Below, one piece after another: positions 585 to 14,010 of a stretch of 20,183 nucleotides of DNA. A program made the translations under genes and the position numbers. The number at the start of each line of letters is the position of its first letter. The first letter of the stretch is position 1. Under the pieces are notes generated by a model. That model saw only the letters and a program-made list of their open reading frames with translations. It did not search any database and was not told the origin of the DNA. Origin of the DNA: a virus; the IMG/VR virus record IMGVR_UViG_3300028196_000115, positions 1 to 20,183 of that record. One strand, written 5' to 3'.

Positions 585-797
585 CTATTCCCTCTTGTAA
601 TATTCTCCTAATATTACATCCGCAATACTAGTACATTCATCAAACCCCGGTCTAAAACGATTATTTACATAACCATTTTCTTTAAACCACTTTATGTTAT
701 TTATACAACTAGATTTTTTATTTTCCGGTATTTCTAAACTTAACATAAAGGTTTCGTACTGATATCTTAGATTTAATAGTTCCGCAATAGATTTCAT
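585..797 (-). CDS. small hypothetical protein (70 aa)
   Basis: This short reading frame starts at an ATG at 795-797 that overlaps the TGA of the preceding nucleotidase-like gene (ATGA junction), which supports translational coupling and a real gene. The protein is soluble-looking and mixed-charge, with one Cys pair spaced far apart (CINNIKWF and DECTS) and no membrane segment or recognisable domain. I do not recognise the family. It lies between the nucleotidase-like gene and the tail-fibre gene in the same transcription unit. Confidence 0.7.
   Translation of the reverse strand: MKSIAELLNLRYQYETFMLSLEIPENKKSSCINNIKWFKENGYVNNRFRPGFDECTSIADVILGEYYKRE
698..705 (-). promoter_or_regulatory. possible T4-type late promoter box inside a coding region
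   Basis: The minus strand reads TATAAATA, a perfect match to the T4 late promoter core. It lies inside the 70-aa gene, about 145 bases upstream of the tail-fibre start at 552. A late structural gene would need such a promoter, but in an AT-rich genome an eight-base match can arise by chance, so this is tentative. Confidence 0.35.
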
Positions 798-1363
798 GTG
801 ATTGCCTCATATAATTGTTTCCAATTATCGTATCTTTCAATATAACTGTCTTTATTATGATCGTGTGCTATTAAAACAGAATTTAATCCAAATCTATCTC
901 CTGTAACAGCATTTTCATGTTTATCTTCTATCCATAAAAGTTCGCTATCTGCGTACTGCTTTAATGCATTATCTTTATCTGCACCTACATCAAGAAAGAT
1001 ATATTTTTCAAAAGCGGTTTTACCAAAAAGTTTTTCAGTATTTTCTATTCTTAGTTTGCCTGCCCAAGGATCTTTTGATAGTGAGGTTATCATATGAAAA
1101 ACGTATCCATGTTCTTCATGGAGTTTTCTAACATATTTAATAGAATCTCTAAGAGGAGGTAAAAACCCAATACGTGATGATTCATTAAATTGTTTAACCA
1201 GACTACGCTTGGTATCTTCAGTTATATTATATTTTTTGGCCATATCATATGAAGTTGAGTAATTAGGTTGAACTGAATGACCATTACTGATCATCCATTC
1301 ATTAAATGCCTGTTCCCAATTCATAAGAACCCCATCGCAGTCCGTCAGAATAGTTTTAATCAT
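794..1363 (-). CDS. HAD-family 5'(3')-deoxyribonucleotidase-like phosphatase
   Basis: A 189-residue HAD-superfamily protein. Motif I is DCDGVL (nucleophile Asp8 and Asp10 of the chosen start), motif II is the Ser/Thr in HMITSLSKD, and the acidic motif is LWIEDKHENA. The short form and the DCDGVL motif match the phage/bacterial 5'(3')-deoxyribonucleotidase group, which removes the phosphate from deoxynucleoside monophosphates. An in-frame ATG exists nine codons upstream (1390), but the ATG at 1361-1363 begins MIKTILTDCDGV, the usual beginning of the fold, and has an AGGAAAGAG site just upstream, so I prefer 1363. It overlaps the upstream 61-aa gene by 8 bases and the downstream gene by 4. Substrate specificity cannot be read from sequence; a salvage or nucleotide-pool role alongside NrdAB is inference. 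Confidence 0.8.
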   Translation of the reverse strand: MIKTILTDCDGVLMNWEQAFNEWMISNGHSVQPNYSTSYDMAKKYNITEDTKRSLVKQFNESSRIGFLPPLRDSIKYVRKLHEEHGYVFHMITSLSKDPWAGKLRIENTEKLFGKTAFEKYIFLDVGADKDNALKQYADSELLWIEDKHENAVTGDRFGLNSVLIAHDHNKDSYIERYDNWKQLYEAIT

Positions 1364-1541
1364 AATCTCTTTCCTCATCCTCCCATTCATCTATTATAGC
1401 ATATGTAGAAGTATTTCCTTTTATCTTAAAATTAGATCGGTTTTCTTCTACATCTCTAATTCTAATATCTTTATTTTGAGAATGGGTTTTATTTCTATCC
1501 CGCTTCTTATTCCGAGGGTCGTACCTACCGAATTTAGCCAT
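1356..1541 (-). CDS. small basic/acidic hypothetical protein (61 aa)
   Basis: The protein begins MAKFGRYDPRNKKRDRNK and ends with a very acidic tail (IIDEWEDEERDYD), so a basic N-terminal half is followed by an acidic end. Similar short 'RYDPRNKK' proteins are familiar in T4-like marine phages, without a known function. The ribosome site is odd: AGGAG lies 14 bases before this ATG, and a two-codon frame ATG-ATT-TAA (1543-1551) lies between, better spaced from the AGGAG. The gene sits between the endolysin and the nucleotidase-like gene and overlaps the latter by 8 bases. Confidence 0.7.
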   Translation of the reverse strand: MAKFGRYDPRNKKRDRNKTHSQNKDIRIRDVEENRSNFKIKGNTSTYAIIDEWEDEERDYD

Positions 1542-8321: not shown

Positions 8322-9965
8322 TTAGCCCTCACATGAGGCACAAGTCATAATATCTCTTACTAATTCTTGTGCGGGGTTCGCAGATCGTTGATAATAAAAT
8401 GTTTTTACTCCCAACTTCCAACCCTCTATTATTAATGAATTAACGTCCTTTGCAGGAACGTCTGGATGTATGAGTATATTTAGCGATTGGGATTGGTCAA
8501 TATATTTCTGTCTAGCACCAGCTTGTTGCACAATAGACAATGGCGTAATTTCACTAAATGTTTTATATATGTCCTTTTCTTTTTGTGATAAGAAATGCAA
8601 GTGTTGAACTGATCCACCTTTGACAAGAATGGATTTCCAAGTTTCATCGTCGTTTCTACCATGATCATGCAATACACCTTTTAGATGTGGATTACGATAA
8701 GTAAATTTACCTTTTGCTAAGTCTTTTGTAAAGTAATTAGATGCAAGAGGTTCAATAGATGGCGATACTTGACCCAGAATAAATGAAGAAGATGTTGTTG
8801 GTGCAATTGCGGTCCTCGTCAAGTTTCTTTCACCAGTACCTAACATACCTGCAGGTTCACCATATTCGATAGCTAATTCTTGTGATGCCTCAAGTGATTT
8901 ATCATCGATAAACTTACTAATTTTTGTGGCTAACATATGAGCTTCAAACGATTCAAATGCTAAACCTTTTGACTGTAGATATGTGTGCCAACCCAATTGA
9001 CCTAAGCCTAATGCTCTCCAATGTGATGCGAAATTATATGCAGAATGCATAAATGTAATGTCTTTTGTTTTTTCAATATATTCTTCCATGACAGCATCAA
9101 GAAACCAAATCATAGTTTCTACTGCATCAGTCTCTTCCCAATCGTCAAATGTTGCACAGTTCATAGACGCGAGATTGCAGACAAAAGACCATTCTTCACT
9201 TGACGGTAAACAAATCTCAGAACAAAGATTAGATGCCCAAATAGAAACGTCATTATCTTTCAAAACTTTTGGTTTATTGTTATTAACAGTATCGCTAAAG
9301 AAAAGATATGGATATCCACTCTCACGGCGCTTACGCAATACTCTTGCCCAGACAGTACGCTTTTCAGCATCGCCATCAATCATAGACTGCATCCATTCAT
9401 CTGAAATGCAAACACCTAAAGATAGATGCATAATAGATGAACCTTCTTCTCTACACTCTAAAAATTCCATAATGTCTGGAGAGTCAATAGGCAAATATGC
9501 GGCAAAAGATCCACGTCTTACTGAACCTTGTGCTACAACATCAACCTGAGTTTCAGTAAGATTCATAAAGTGAACTGGACCATCTGCAGTGCCACCAGAG
9601 TTAATATCTTCACCTCTTGCACGAATAGCACCAAAGTAACCAGATGTACCAGCACCCATTTTTGTCTGCATTCCTACTTCAGCATTTTTCATTAAGATAG
9701 ATGCCATATCATCTTCAATATAAACACCATTACATGAAATTGGCAAACCTTTTTTAGTACCAAAGTTTGACCAAACTGGAGAAGAAAGACTATAGAAACC
9801 TCTACTCATGTAATCATAAAACTTATCACCAAAGCCTTCTTTGTCAAGAATAGCTTCGGCAGTCTGAGCAATATTTCTTACTCTTTCTTCAACGGTCATA
9901 TTACCGTCAATATATCCACGGCTCAGAAAAGTCCGTGCATCTTCATTAGCCCATTCAAATCCCAT
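8322..9965 (-). CDS. nrdA: class I ribonucleotide reductase large subunit lacking the ATP cone
   Basis: A 547-residue alpha subunit that would reduce ribonucleotides to deoxyribonucleotides. The catalytic residues are all visible: Cys78 (PISCNGV) and Cys263 (VCNLASMN) as the redox pair, Asn246/Cys248/Glu250 (NLCSE) as thiyl radical site and acids, Tyr524-Tyr525 (FYYQRS) in the radical-transfer path, and C-terminal Cys542/Cys545 (CASCEG) for re-reduction. Cellular NrdA has about 750 residues; the missing part is N-terminal, including the ATP-cone overall-activity domain. The truncation is not a start error: an AGGAG lies seven bases before the ATG at 9965, overlapping the nrdB stop. It should therefore be insensitive to dATP shut-off, while the specificity site is probably kept. 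Its partner is nrdB, 9 bases upstream. Confidence 0.95.
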   Translation of the reverse strand: MGFEWANEDARTFLSRGYIDGNMTVEERVRNIAQTAEAILDKEGFGDKFYDYMSRGFYSLSSPVWSNFGTKKGLPISCNGVYIEDDMASILMKNAEVGMQTKMGAGTSGYFGAIRARGEDINSGGTADGPVHFMNLTETQVDVVAQGSVRRGSFAAYLPIDSPDIMEFLECREEGSSIMHLSLGVCISDEWMQSMIDGDAEKRTVWARVLRKRRESGYPYLFFSDTVNNNKPKVLKDNDVSIWASNLCSEICLPSSEEWSFVCNLASMNCATFDDWEETDAVETMIWFLDAVMEEYIEKTKDITFMHSAYNFASHWRALGLGQLGWHTYLQSKGLAFESFEAHMLATKISKFIDDKSLEASQELAIEYGEPAGMLGTGERNLTRTAIAPTTSSSFILGQVSPSIEPLASNYFTKDLAKGKFTYRNPHLKGVLHDHGRNDDETWKSILVKGGSVQHLHFLSQKEKDIYKTFSEITPLSIVQQAGARQKYIDQSQSLNILIHPDVPAKDVNSLIIEGWKLGVKTFYYQRSANPAQELVRDIMTCASCEG

Positions 9966-9974
9966 TATATACTC

Positions 9975-10946
9975 CTAAAATAAATCATCTGCAGTAATGC
10001 CTTGTCCTTTAGCATATTCTACAGGACGTTTTTGAAAGAAATCTGTCATATTAGCACCCAACAATTCTTCTTCAAACCAAAACGTTTCATCAACCAATTC
10101 TTGATTAAATTTAATTTCACTACTATCAAATCCAATTTGATCAATAGACTCTGCCATACGATATGCAATAAAAGATTTTAGAATATCAGCGTTCAAACCT
10201 TTTACTGAATAGTCTCCCATGATCCAATCAATCACTTTACTCTCTGCTTTTAATGAATCAATACATTCTTGCTCAATACGGTCTTGTAATTCTTGATCAA
10301 AATATTCTGGATACTCGTCACGCAACGTTTGAATTAATTTGATACCTACTTGTGCGTGAAGCATTTCCTCATTTCGTGTGTATTGTACTTGTTGGGCACA
10401 ATCTTTCATTACTGCTTTGTTTCTATTCATATGCATGATTATATAGAACTGGCTAAACAAGCTTACATTCTCAACAAACAAGGTAAACAAAATAATTGAA
10501 TAGATGTATTGTTTTTTATCATCCTCATAAACTTTGTTGTTATATTTGCGGAGATAATCTACACGACCTTTAATAACTTCTTCATTCAAATTTTCCTCAA
10601 ATACATGTGTCATATGAAGAACATCAAGAATTTTTTCATAAGCCATATTGTGAATGACTTCGGAATTTGCCATAGCATATCCTAAATCTTTTATAGAAGG
10701 ATGTGGCAAATGTTTACCTACGTCAGCCCAGAAACTCTTAACTGCTATTTCGATTTGTCCAATTGCCGACATTGTTTTTACAACGATTTGTTGTTCGGCT
10801 TCAGTAAGATCAGTTTTAAATTGGGAGTAGTCTGATCTAAAATTAAATTCTTCGGGTGTCCAGAAGCCTTTCCAAATAGCTTCAATAAATTGTTTTGTCC
10901 ACGGGTACAAATCTGGTTTCCGTGCAATTTGTTCTTCAAATAGCAT
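9975..10946 (-). CDS. nrdB: class I ribonucleotide reductase small subunit
   Basis: A 323-residue beta subunit that houses the dimetal centre and radical. Candidate ligands are Glu66 (QIEIAVKSFW), Glu96 and His99 (NSEVIHNMAY), Glu159 (LFVENVSLF), and Glu194 and His197 (NEEMLHAQ). Tyr103, seven residues after Glu96, is at the place of the radical tyrosine, so a tyrosyl-radical type is likely. The first ligand is Glu rather than the Asp of E. coli NrdB. The C-terminus (GQGITADDLF) would bind NrdA. An AGGAAAAG site precedes the ATG. It is the first gene of the operon from the promoter at 10991-11019. Confidence 0.95.
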   Translation of the reverse strand: MLFEEQIARKPDLYPWTKQFIEAIWKGFWTPEEFNFRSDYSQFKTDLTEAEQQIVVKTMSAIGQIEIAVKSFWADVGKHLPHPSIKDLGYAMANSEVIHNMAYEKILDVLHMTHVFEENLNEEVIKGRVDYLRKYNNKVYEDDKKQYIYSIILFTLFVENVSLFSQFYIIMHMNRNKAVMKDCAQQVQYTRNEEMLHAQVGIKLIQTLRDEYPEYFDQELQDRIEQECIDSLKAESKVIDWIMGDYSVKGLNADILKSFIAYRMAESIDQIGFDSSEIKFNQELVDETFWFEEELLGANMTDFFQKRPVEYAKGQGITADDLF

Positions 10947-11115: not shown

Positions 11116-11151
11116 AAGATTCTTCTTAGTGAGTGGGGTAATCATTCTAAG
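11102..11151. other. two adjacent inverted repeats between nrdB and the o-spanin-like gene
   Basis: The first is GAATCT / AGATTC (11102-11107 with 11117-11122, 9-base loop containing the plus-strand -10). The second is CTTAGTGA / TCA-tt-CTAAG (11125-11132 with 11142-11151, loop GTGGGGTAA). The second covers the stop of the o-spanin-like gene. Neither has a T-run on the minus strand, so they are weak terminators at best. They might instead be the 5' structure of a plus-strand RNA. Confidence 0.45.
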
Positions 11152-11552
11152 GTAACTGCCATGTCAAGTTTTGATTCTGCTTGATTATAATATTTCTCAT
11201 AAGCATCAACTATAGCATGTTGTTGTGAAACATACATCTGGATATCAGATAAATTTAGAGAAATATTTTCATAACCTTGATCAGTTAAGCCAAAGAAAAC
11301 AAGAGGTCTACCTTTATCTTTTAATTCAGCAAAAGATTCTTCATGATTCTCTGGTGTAACAAGAATCCACTCTATTTTTCTTTGTATTAATTCATCCGCT
11401 TTAGGCAAAATGAGTTCAGGTTTATCAACAGGTTTTGTTCTTATTTGTATTGGTTCTGGAATGTCATTGCGACCCAAGCAACCCGTCAGCAATGTTAAGA
11501 TCATCATAAAGCCAAGGACATTCACTATTGAACGCTTTACCATTCTTTGCAT
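11142..11552 (-). CDS. o-spanin-like outer-membrane lipoprotein (Rz1-like)
   Basis: A 136-residue protein with a signal sequence (KRSIVNVLGFMMILTLLTGC) ending in the lipobox LTGC, so cleavage and lipidation at that Cys are predicted. The mature part contains PVDKPELILPKADELIQRKIEWILVTPENHEESF and a helical, Gln/Tyr-rich end (IQMYVSQQHAIVDAYEKYYNQAESKLD). This is familiar from Rz1-like spanin components of marine phages. It overlaps the end of the TM/coiled-coil gene upstream by 89 bases in another frame, the typical Rz/Rz1 arrangement. Together they would span the periplasm and fuse inner and outer membranes at lysis. GGAGG before the ATG at 11552 fixes the start. It is larger than classical Rz1, so the exact role is inferred. 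Confidence 0.8.
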   Translation of the reverse strand: MQRMVKRSIVNVLGFMMILTLLTGCLGRNDIPEPIQIRTKPVDKPELILPKADELIQRKIEWILVTPENHEESFAELKDKGRPLVFFGLTDQGYENISLNLSDIQMYVSQQHAIVDAYEKYYNQAESKLDMAVTLE

Positions 11553-11949
11553 TTTTTTCCTCCATTCTCAATTCGGCGCCAGATATAATTTCAAAACATC
11601 TTAGTGCCTTTTCACTTGCATTATTTACAACACGTTCCACTAAATCGGGCTTTGCTTCACCTAACATACCAATATCGTGTTTTTGTATCTTTTTCAATAA
11701 AATTTTATTTCTGGTGCGAGTTCGTCTTAATTCTTTATTTACTGTATCTAGCTGTTTATTAACTCTTACTATATCACTTTCCATAGTAGAAATTGTTGCA
11801 GTCTGCGTTTCAACAGCAACATTTAATTTGGCGTTATTTTCTTTGAGAACTTCTATTTTAGCTTGCATATTATTCCAAGTCTTATAACCTGCAAAACCTA
11901 TAGAACCTATAATACCAATAACAAAAAGTGTCACATAAATTTTTAACAT
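11464..11949 (-). CDS. i-spanin-like inner-membrane coiled-coil protein (Rz-like)
   Basis: A 161-residue protein with one N-terminal membrane segment (residues 4-21, IYVTLFVIGIIGSIGFAG). A long periplasmic coiled coil follows (about 28-90: MQAKIEVLKENNAKLNVAVE...VNKQLDTVNKELRRTR). The C-terminal domain has two Cys (RCFEIISGAE and SECPWLYDD). This layout is that of a phage i-spanin. The start forms a TAATG junction with the HAD gene upstream, and the lipoprotein gene begins inside its 3' end. Two Cys in the periplasm may allow a disulfide. The endolysin is 9 kb away in another transcription unit. Confidence 0.82.
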   Translation of the reverse strand: MLKIYVTLFVIGIIGSIGFAGYKTWNNMQAKIEVLKENNAKLNVAVETQTATISTMESDIVRVNKQLDTVNKELRRTRTRNKILLKKIQKHDIGMLGEAKPDLVERVVNNASEKALRCFEIISGAELRMEEKNAKNGKAFNSECPWLYDDLNIADGLLGSQ

Positions 11950-12554
11950 TATCTCACTCGGTTAACCCTGCCATCAGACTTGGCAAAAAAAGCTTCAAAA
12001 CTTACATCTGGATACTGATCTTGAAGCGATAAGAATGCAGTAAGATTACTCTTAGCATCGTCAAAGAAACGAATGCGCTTATAAATGCCTTGATCTAAAT
12101 ATTTTTTAAAAATTACTATCTTGTTTTCGGCGGGTGGACCATGACCTAAATTACCAGCACGTTCAACATAAACTTTGTCAATGTCAATGCCTTGTTGTCT
12201 AAATGTATCTAAGAATAATTTCTTATTATCAAAGTCCGCCCTTGCAGTTACGATAATAACTTTTGATCCTGCTTTAGTTGCGTTCTTCAGAATGGCTTTT
12301 ACTTTATTAATCATTCTAGCTATAGGTGTTGATGTTTTATTGAATACTTCAGCGTTTTTAAATTCGCCGAAATCCCAACTTTCGTCAGATTTTAATTTGT
12401 ATGTGTTATACTCTTGATTTGTAAGTTTCTTAATAATCTTATTATCTTTTTTTATACCAACTTTAGCGTTTGTTTTGAACATAGTTTCATCTATGTCAAA
12501 GATTGTTAAACCTTTACCAGTAGCTTCAGTTAAATATGATTTGAAAGTTAGCAT
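11949..12554 (-). CDS. HAD-family hydrolase with a T4-type capsid-targeting N-terminus
   Basis: A 201-residue protein with HAD motif I FDIDETMF (nucleophile Asp in DxDxT), motif II IIVTARADF, a candidate motif III Lys region (AENKIVIFKKYL) and motif IV RIRFFDDAKSNL. It should be a magnesium-dependent phosphatase or related hydrolase; the substrate is unknown. The N-terminus MLTFKSYLTEATG resembles the capsid-targeting peptide of T4 internal proteins (MKTYQEFIAEA). LTE-A fits the gp21 prohead-protease consensus (L/I-x-E, then A or G), so the protein may be packaged in the head and trimmed. It starts in a TAATG overlap with the upstream gene and ends in another with the i-spanin gene. Similar proteins exist in T4-like cyanophages. 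It differs from the nucleotidase-like HAD at 794-1363. Confidence 0.85.
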   Translation of the reverse strand: MLTFKSYLTEATGKGLTIFDIDETMFKTNAKVGIKKDNKIIKKLTNQEYNTYKLKSDESWDFGEFKNAEVFNKTSTPIARMINKVKAILKNATKAGSKVIIVTARADFDNKKLFLDTFRQQGIDIDKVYVERAGNLGHGPPAENKIVIFKKYLDQGIYKRIRFFDDAKSNLTAFLSLQDQYPDVSFEAFFAKSDGRVNRVR

Positions 12555-13048
12555 TATTGACCTTTCATATAACCTTTAAATCTTTTGAGTACTACAGTTT
12601 CACCCTGGCGCTTTTTCTTTTTATATCGTTTATCTTCAACATCAATAGGTTTCATATTTCTTCTAATCATTTTATCGTGATTAGGATTACCTAAAGGAAA
12701 TGCATCATGACTTGCAACATGACCACCACTCATACTCATTGCAGGAGCATCTTCTTTGACAGATTCTGTGGGTAATTCATTCTTCATATAGTCTCTAGCA
12801 GTATCAATATAATCCGTAGCTTTTGTTATTTTTGACTGAACCCATTCAGGCATATTTGTATCATCTTTTAACATATCGTGCAATTCCAAAGCGGCATCTG
12901 CAATAGTTTTTAGTTGACCTTTTGCCATACCACCTTCATTATCATATTCAGAATTTTCTTTAGTATTCTTGCCCATAGATGTTCCTTTAGGAGCAACGCC
13001 ACTATTTTTTATTTTATTGATAAGTTTTAAATTTCTTGGCGTTCTCAT
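12554..13048 (-). CDS. conserved T4-like late protein with EGGMAKGQL domain, function unknown
   Basis: A 164-residue protein. The N-terminus is basic and low in complexity (RTPRNLKLINKIKNSG). The central segment EGGMAKGQLKTIADAALELHDMLKDDTNMPEWVQSKITKATDYIDTARDYM (about residues 38-88) is a helical module that I recognise from marine T4-like phage structural or head-associated proteins. The tail is Gly/Met-rich, then strongly basic (DKRYKKKKRQGETVVLKRFKGYMKG). It is translated through TAATG junctions with both neighbours, so expression is coupled with the HAD protein. A DNA-binding or head-internal role would fit the charge, but that is inference. Confidence 0.8.
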   Translation of the reverse strand: MRTPRNLKLINKIKNSGVAPKGTSMGKNTKENSEYDNEGGMAKGQLKTIADAALELHDMLKDDTNMPEWVQSKITKATDYIDTARDYMKNELPTESVKEDAPAMSMSGGHVASHDAFPLGNPNHDKMIRRNMKPIDVEDKRYKKKKRQGETVVLKRFKGYMKGQ

Positions 13049-13635: not shown

Positions 13636-14010
13636 TTATATCTTTCTTAATTCATCTACTACAAATTGATCCATTTCAATATCCGAATATTCATCATATT
13701 TTATATATTTCAAATAGATCAAAAATGGTTTAATAATTGACCAATTGCGATTATCAAATTTTAATCTCATAATTTTAGTTGCAGCTTCAATTCCAAAAAC
13801 ATTAAATATAATAACAATATGATTAAGTATCAGCCGTACAGATAGTTTTTTATCTTCACGGCTTAGATACCTATTTACTAATCTTTTTACATATTTTATT
13901 CTATTCAAATCTTCATAAAATTCATCAACATCTATACACTTTGGATTATAATAATTTCTTGCTGCAAATAGCACAAGGTTATCTTCATTTACATCATCAA
14001 ATATTTTCAT
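13636..14010 (-). CDS. conserved phage protein of unknown function (124 aa)
   Basis: A mostly helical protein, MKIFDDVNEDNLVLFAARNYYNPKCIDVDEFYEDLNRIKYVKRLVNRYL, then RLILNHIVIIFNVFGIEAATKIMRLKFD and KPFLIYLKYIKYDEYSDIEMDQFVVDEL. The order 'LF(A)..YNP....FYED..R.KY.KRL' and 'LLNH....NVFG' is familiar from short proteins conserved in T4-like phages and cyanophages, with no known function. It lies 4 bases upstream of the 194-aa gene and 14 bases downstream of the EF-hand-like gene in the same late unit. The ribosome site is weak (AAAGTGA). Confidence 0.8.
   Translation of the reverse strand: MKIFDDVNEDNLVLFAARNYYNPKCIDVDEFYEDLNRIKYVKRLVNRYLSREDKKLSVRLILNHIVIIFNVFGIEAATKIMRLKFDNRNWSIIKPFLIYLKYIKYDEYSDIEMDQFVVDELRKI

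Follow-up and report, generated by a model that had tools for sequence, protein, structure and literature searches.

A HAD-family phosphatase of a marine T4-like phage headed by a putative capsid-targeting sequence and a predicted prohead-protease site

Why should a phage phosphatase begin with a short peptide like the one by which T4 loads proteins into its head? This question is raised by one gene in the window, i.e., the entire 20-kb virus fragment (20,183 nt) that we analysed. The gene is an ORF on the minus strand (11949–12554, read from 12554 to 11949) with an ATG start, and its 201-residue translation begins MLTFKSYLTEATGKGLTIFDIDET. The initial annotation had noted the HAD superfamily motifs FDIDETMF (with D20–D22), VTARADF, and FFDDAKSNL, preceded by MLTFKSYLTEATG, and had read the N-terminus as a capsid-targeting peptide ending in a prohead-protease site. 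The ORF and the three motifs, headed by MLTFKSYLTE/A (a slash marks an actual or presumed cut here and below), were confirmed. Codons 1–10, MLTFKSYLTE (12525–12554, minus strand), constitute the candidate capsid-targeting sequence, hereafter the tag, in which F4 and Y7 correspond to targeting and L8 and E10 to processing. A gp21 cut, inferred from the [L/I]xE of gp23 in relatives, is predicted between E10 (12525–12527) and A11 (12522–12524; together 12522–12527, minus strand), and the mature protein would then begin ATGKGLTIFD. Since this N-terminal label resembles the T4 head-loading label, the HAD protein probably travels with the DNA in the head and reaches the next host cell with it, perhaps accompanied by an RNA-ligase-like protein bearing a label of the same kind. 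We propose that, in this marine T4-like phage, it is targeted to the capsid as an internal head protein, cut by a gp21-type protease, and ejected with the DNA, with RNA-end healing as its most likely job; packaging, cutting, injection, and substrate are all inferred, and we give this reading a probability of roughly 0.78. The conservation of the tag, its occurrence on unrelated proteins, the corresponding capsid-protein sites, and the HAD fold were computed here, while the T4 tag positions and the tagged enzymes in cyanophage virions were established by others and are applied by analogy.

The catalytic motif set of the HAD superfamily was complete, with D20/D22, T103, K145, and D165/D166 invariant among 48 homologues. 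On the minus strand, motif I (D20-I-D22-E-T24, with T24 invariant among 38 homologues) lies at 12483–12497, motif II (T103-A-R105, invariant) at 12240–12248, the probable motif III lysine K145, whose role is inferred from the superfamily, at 12120–12122, and motif IV (D165-D166) at 12057–12062. In the Pfam search, DUF2608 scored above the cut-off and acid phosphatase B (PF03767) matched at 8.6e-5, and the best PHROG match was PHROG 415, polynucleotide kinase (2.2e-8). Based on these matches and an AlphaFold2 model, the predicted mature phosphatase (11949–12524 including the stop codon, minus strand) has 191 residues and a pI of 9.7.

Around the HAD gene, the window carried a set of genes characteristic of marine phages of the T4 type: nrdA, nrdB, PhoH, exonuclease, endolysin, Rz-type spanins, and DUF7207. 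The stop codon of an upstream hypothetical gene (12554–13048, minus strand) overlaps the HAD start (TAATG), and the two genes are therefore probably co-transcribed. A DUF7207/phrog_407 protein (13636–14010, minus strand), identified by Pfam and PHROG and by synteny with S-SM1 and S-SCSM1, marks a T4-like cluster between gp41 and nrdAB that in cyanophages contains virion proteins detected by mass spectrometry; nrdA and nrdB (8322–10946, minus strand) form its other border. Overlapping Rz-type spanin genes (11142–11949, minus strand) lie directly downstream of the HAD gene. A second phosphatase-like protein (794–1390, minus strand; phrog_420, with a weak 5'-deoxyribonucleotidase match) has no tag. 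No nucleotide match was found between the window and known phages, and the annotated phages yielded a single distant protein match to HAD (LR756500), without the tag.

The AlphaFold2 model of the HAD protein (pLDDT 88) adopted a HAD Rossmann fold. The first entry in the Foldseek list was AphA, a class B acid phosphatase, whereas the best match of a second fold search was the 3'-phosphatase domain of T4 Pnkp (5uj0; Z 13.8, 2.7 Å over 133 residues). Lower-listed matches to unrelated Rossmann proteins were set aside, and a sequence search of solved structures returned nothing useful for HAD or for DUF6267. The same packaging could thus carry other enzymology, namely a nucleotidase or a broad AphA-like phosphatase that acts on nucleotides and not on RNA ends. 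The first Foldseek rank of AphA, its Z of 12.1–12.8 in the second search, and the Pfam acid phosphatase B match favour such an enzyme; the slightly higher Z and the lower rmsd of T4 Pnkp, the polynucleotide kinase family as the best PHROG match, and the RNA-ligase-like gene that often adjoins HAD speak against it. As the Z scores differ by only about 1, they cannot separate Pnkp from AphA, and we regard the choice of substrate as nearly balanced, with the nucleotide reading slightly the weaker.

In many relatives, the adjoining gene encodes DUF6267, in which K61-x-D63-G64, corresponding to the ligase motif I KxDG, was invariant and motifs of the EGFVA...KLVDR type were present. RNA ligases made up all of the best 24 fold matches of the DUF6267 model (Naegleria ligase with the highest Z, 8.7, as well as Trl1 and T4 Rnl2), and the match was middling, covering 186 of 417 residues at that Z. 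DUF6267 itself was tagged in many phages. Of 27 divergent stand-alone HAD genes, 14 had its signature no more than 1.5 kb away, compared with 0 of 235 background pieces. A HAD phosphatase together with a ligase fold would imply healing and sealing of RNA ends, and the Pnkp-like fold and the tagged neighbour of RNA-ligase fold in many relatives are our reasons for considering RNA-end healing the likeliest job of HAD. A bolder form of this idea, for which we claim well under even odds, is a kit for repairing RNA ends that is packaged in the head. The Pnkp-like 3'-phosphatase and DUF6267 as an RNA ligase, both tagged and often encoded by adjacent genes, would be processed by the prohead protease, enter the cell with the DNA as two of many tagged injected enzymes, and mend tRNAs broken by host defence nucleases before the expression of any phage gene.

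The conservation of the tag was investigated in HAD homologues. Among 118 relatives in virus contigs, 80 were kept and 79 were readable through residue 1; all 79 possessed the tag, in 23 different 24-residue spellings, and most of the divergent stand-alone homologues also kept it. In an alignment of 38 homologues that included divergent members, down to about 50% identity, M1, F4, and E10 showed zero entropy, position 7 (Y, F, or H) and position 8 (L or I) showed low entropy, and positions 2, 3, 5, 6, and 9 exceeded 2 bits. In T4 IPIII, residues 4 and 7 are needed for targeting and residues 8 and 10 for processing (PMC9026906), and these coincide with the constrained positions 4, 7, 8, and 10 of the HAD tag. 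The linker from E10 to the HAD core varied by several residues among homologues, and residues 1–10 of the model had a mean pLDDT of 49, compared with 80–96 for most of the body. The conserved positions 1, 4, 7, 8, and 10, the variable linker, and the low pLDDT together indicate that the tag is a separate module; the low model confidence and the variable linker rule it out as a part of the HAD fold. Hence, retention of the peptide in linkage to the HAD domain, which the initial annotation had put forward as a check, was borne out in the 79 close homologues and in most of the divergent stand-alone ones. In some other large phages (L382, L391, L412, L434, and L446/L447), the HAD domain lay inside longer multi-domain proteins, with parts that appeared endolysin-like and kinase-like by eye. 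In L382, the internal HAD directly follows NLLNE/AEGLGLTI, a possible internal cut site.

Neither gp21 nor gp23 was present in the 20-kb window, and the cleavage consensus was therefore taken from relatives. At the place expected from T4, [L/I]xE was found in 17 of 17 gp23 sequences of relatives, many of them reading [L/I]xE/A. The site of T4 gp23 is FLTE/A; those in the HAD-bearing group were MITE/AAP, LISE/AAP, YLEE/ATG, VLNE/AIP, and ALFE/AAP, and FLTE/TGP was another among relatives. The YLEE/ATG of gp23 in G021 and G023 was matched by YLEE/ATG or YLEE/AAG in HAD proteins of the group. The shared consensus was observed in contigs with both genes, as well as in C48C1, HTVC008M, G043, and G057. 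The comparison with capsid-protein sites, also suggested at the outset, accordingly fits, with the reservation that it concerns gp23 of relatives, the window having none.

With respect to gene position, gp23 was also located on 13 of 37 long HAD-bearing contigs; in G009, G021, and G023, HAD followed it at a distance of one or two genes. Contigs with both gp21 and tagged HAD were G043, G052, G057, and G058. On long contigs, gp21 was present on 10 of 24 with a tagged gene or HAD homologue versus 6 of 26 controls, a weak excess obtained from fragments. In T4, the N-terminus of ipII and ipIII is MKTYQEFIAEA and that of ipI is MKTFKEF, and the tag pattern within 50 kb of T4 identified ipII and ipIII only. 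Genes for 70-residue proteins were observed just upstream of gp21 in G009, G012, G019, and G023, at the position of T4 gp67/gp68; these proteins begin MKTFSALREA, MKTFLHLREL, MYTFSQLREL, or MKKFREIREA, which is a tag shorter by one residue.

Tagged enzymes were also found in published virion proteomes of cyanophages. The cytidylyltransferase T4-GC190 of S-SM1, reported from purified virions (PMC3037559), has the N-terminus MKKFSAFLNEAERS (MKKFSAFLNEA), and the NMNAT of S-SCSM1, a virion protein (PMC9602691), has MKSFLQFLKEAAES (MKSFLQFLKEA); the sole other tagged ORF of S-SCSM1, ORF30 (MKTFKQFMSES), was not labelled as a virion protein. In the 175 kb of S-CREM2, the strict tag occurred at only three annotated ORF starts: a SAM hydrolase (MKDFDSFLEE), an APH-like kinase (MKRFDAFLTEE), and a cytidylyltransferase (MKNFSSFLTEA). 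Mass spectrometry of this phage detected 52 of 219 ORFs, all three tagged ones included (PMC10665884), which corresponds to a Fisher p of 0.013. The detected cytidylyltransferase of S-SZBM1 starts with the one-residue-shorter form MRFRQFIIEA, and the adjacent DUF6267, which is untagged, is not named in the text or tables of the virion paper. Two tag-like variants were noted post hoc in S-CREM2 (OR473000): LRFASFMAEAAV near the N-terminus of ORF12, a virion-detected Cas9-like nuclease, and MKDLHSFLTEQ at the start of ORF13. The authors of the cyanophage proteomes cautioned that proteins foreign to the virion might, if abundant, persist through CsCl purification, and the cited detections (PMC3037559, PMC10665884, and PMC9602691) concern tagged proteins other than HAD, with no cut N-terminus checked. 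Taken together, the conserved tag, the gp23 sites of relatives, and the tagged virion enzymes support the original proposal of a capsid-targeting peptide with a prohead-protease site; packaging, cutting, and injection of HAD itself remain inferences.

In the mechanism that we propose, residues 1–10 would bind the prohead core during assembly, with F4 and Y7 as recognition residues, and a gp21-type prohead protease would cut after L8-T9-E10. The 191-residue basic phosphatase would remain inside the head, leave it together with the DNA when the next cell is infected, and heal RNA ends at the start of that infection, for example those of tRNAs that a host defence nuclease has cut. The tag might equally target the prohead core and be cut while the enzyme acts in head assembly or is merely carried. 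The HAD gene stands beside the capsid gene in some relatives, and no data analysed here address ejection. We nevertheless consider a protein without a role after injection unlikely: T4 IPIII without its tag functions in the cytoplasm of the host (PMC9391042), cargo bearing the T4 capsid-targeting sequence is delivered to cells (PMC9026906), and several of the tagged proteins in the census described below (SAM lyase, zeta-toxin-like kinase, and methyltransferase) look host-directed.

Expression timing bears on another explanation, in which the tag is a docking or localisation element in the infected cell, unrelated to the head, and HAD is an early metabolic gene. A late promoter was sought before the HAD gene; instead, a sigma70-like promoter (TTTACT-N17-TATAAT) was seen directly before the HAD start in many relatives. 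The −10 element was observed a few bases before the HAD ATG in G012, G015, G019, G026, G030, G031, and G034, and such proximity predicts a very short or absent leader. As judged from the promoter sequence, early expression of HAD is suggested, and the position of the window gene in an nrdAB neighbourhood likewise agrees with a metabolic role. However, the promoter is not decisive, because T4 ipI also has a GTTTACA-type element upstream, and early and late expression of the HAD gene may coexist. In addition, a docking element would leave unexplained that the conserved positions are the T4 targeting and processing residues, that [L/I]xE is matched in gp23, and that tagged proteins of other phages occur in virions. 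We therefore rate this explanation as even less probable than a role confined to the head.

The tag was not confined to HAD. A census with a DNA pattern over virus contigs, counting proteins of at least 60 residues, yielded at least 115 tagged proteins in at least 55 unrelated clusters; among the matches listed, 115 of 126 headed an open frame, versus 43 of 120 for a codon-permuted control. Since the census pattern itself required residues 8 and 10, a second test started from 7425 ORFs that the full pattern had not selected and used the 133 of them that begin M..F..[FY]. Both [LIVM] at position 8 and E at position 10 were present in 53 of the 133, against 2.3 expected, and E peaked at position 10. 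Contig G043 (104 kb) carries gp21, gp22, and gp23. Five consecutive tagged genes on it (84750–87622; L472) shared 22–29 of the 30 nucleotides coding MKTFKEYLEE; their bodies were unrelated, one being HAD and another DUF6267. This identity at the DNA level suggests that unrelated genes have recently acquired copies of the tag. Four tagged genes were found in one cluster of C48C1, and no protein with the strict tag was found in HTVC008M. In C48C1 (OQ984149), the start of the cytidyltransferase at 63514 is probably annotated too late, as an upstream GTG gives the tagged IKNFSQYLLEE. Besides the host-directed types named above, the census cargo included DUF6267, cytidylyltransferase, and many unknowns. 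The commonest family (L136:6812-7405 and 27 further members, approximately 195 residues) begins MKTFKEYLTESKKTYSFKVKIAGD; its first member had no Pfam or PHROG match, and the family is possibly a head protein. Short motifs often arise by chance, but this 53-versus-2.3 excess, the identical tags on unrelated neighbours, and the location of the tag outside the fold refute the view that the N-terminal similarity of HAD is accidental or part of its fold, to which we attach practically no weight.

Comparison with known systems supports the assignment of the HAD protein to the class of capsid-targeted internal proteins. It resembles T4 IPI, IPII, and IPIII in its 10-residue tag with aromatics at positions 4 and 7, I/L at 8, E10, and A11, in its basic mature protein, in the occurrence of the tag on unrelated proteins, and in the major-capsid-protein site. 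It differs from them in that its mature part is a phosphatase without sequence relation to the IPs and its presence in virions is inferred. T4 Alt, a head-packaged and gp21-cut ADP-ribosyltransferase, is likewise an enzyme carried as internal head cargo, but the enzyme and the propeptide are different. The virion enzymes of S-SM1, S-SCSM1, and S-CREM2 share the N-terminal tag and are other enzymes (cytidylyltransferase/NMNAT, SAM hydrolase, and kinase); the papers reporting them did not tie them to a targeting sequence. T4 Pnkp shares the HAD phosphatase fold, whereas the HAD protein lacks a kinase domain, bears a head tag, and acts on 3'-phosphates only by inference from the fold and a weak profile similarity. 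The AphA class B acid phosphatases also share the fold (Z 12–13, about 13% identity), but they are secreted periplasmic enzymes, unlike the tagged HAD protein. Our literature search, which did not cover many subscription papers, found no paper joining the tag to marine phage cargo; the wider set of tagged cargo behind the HAD protein is apparently undescribed.

So far, only a few T4 proteins have been known to bear the T4 capsid-targeting sequence. Should the tag have the same meaning across T4-like phages, marine ones included, the N-terminus of a phage protein would by itself predict whether the protein travels in the head and is injected, and the puzzling enzymes in cyanophage virions would have an explanation. 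Thousands of unknown phage genes would then yield testable candidates for injected effectors and counter-defence proteins, and a packaged phosphatase with an RNA ligase, if real, would be a new counter to RNA-cutting defences that is in place already in the first minute of infection.
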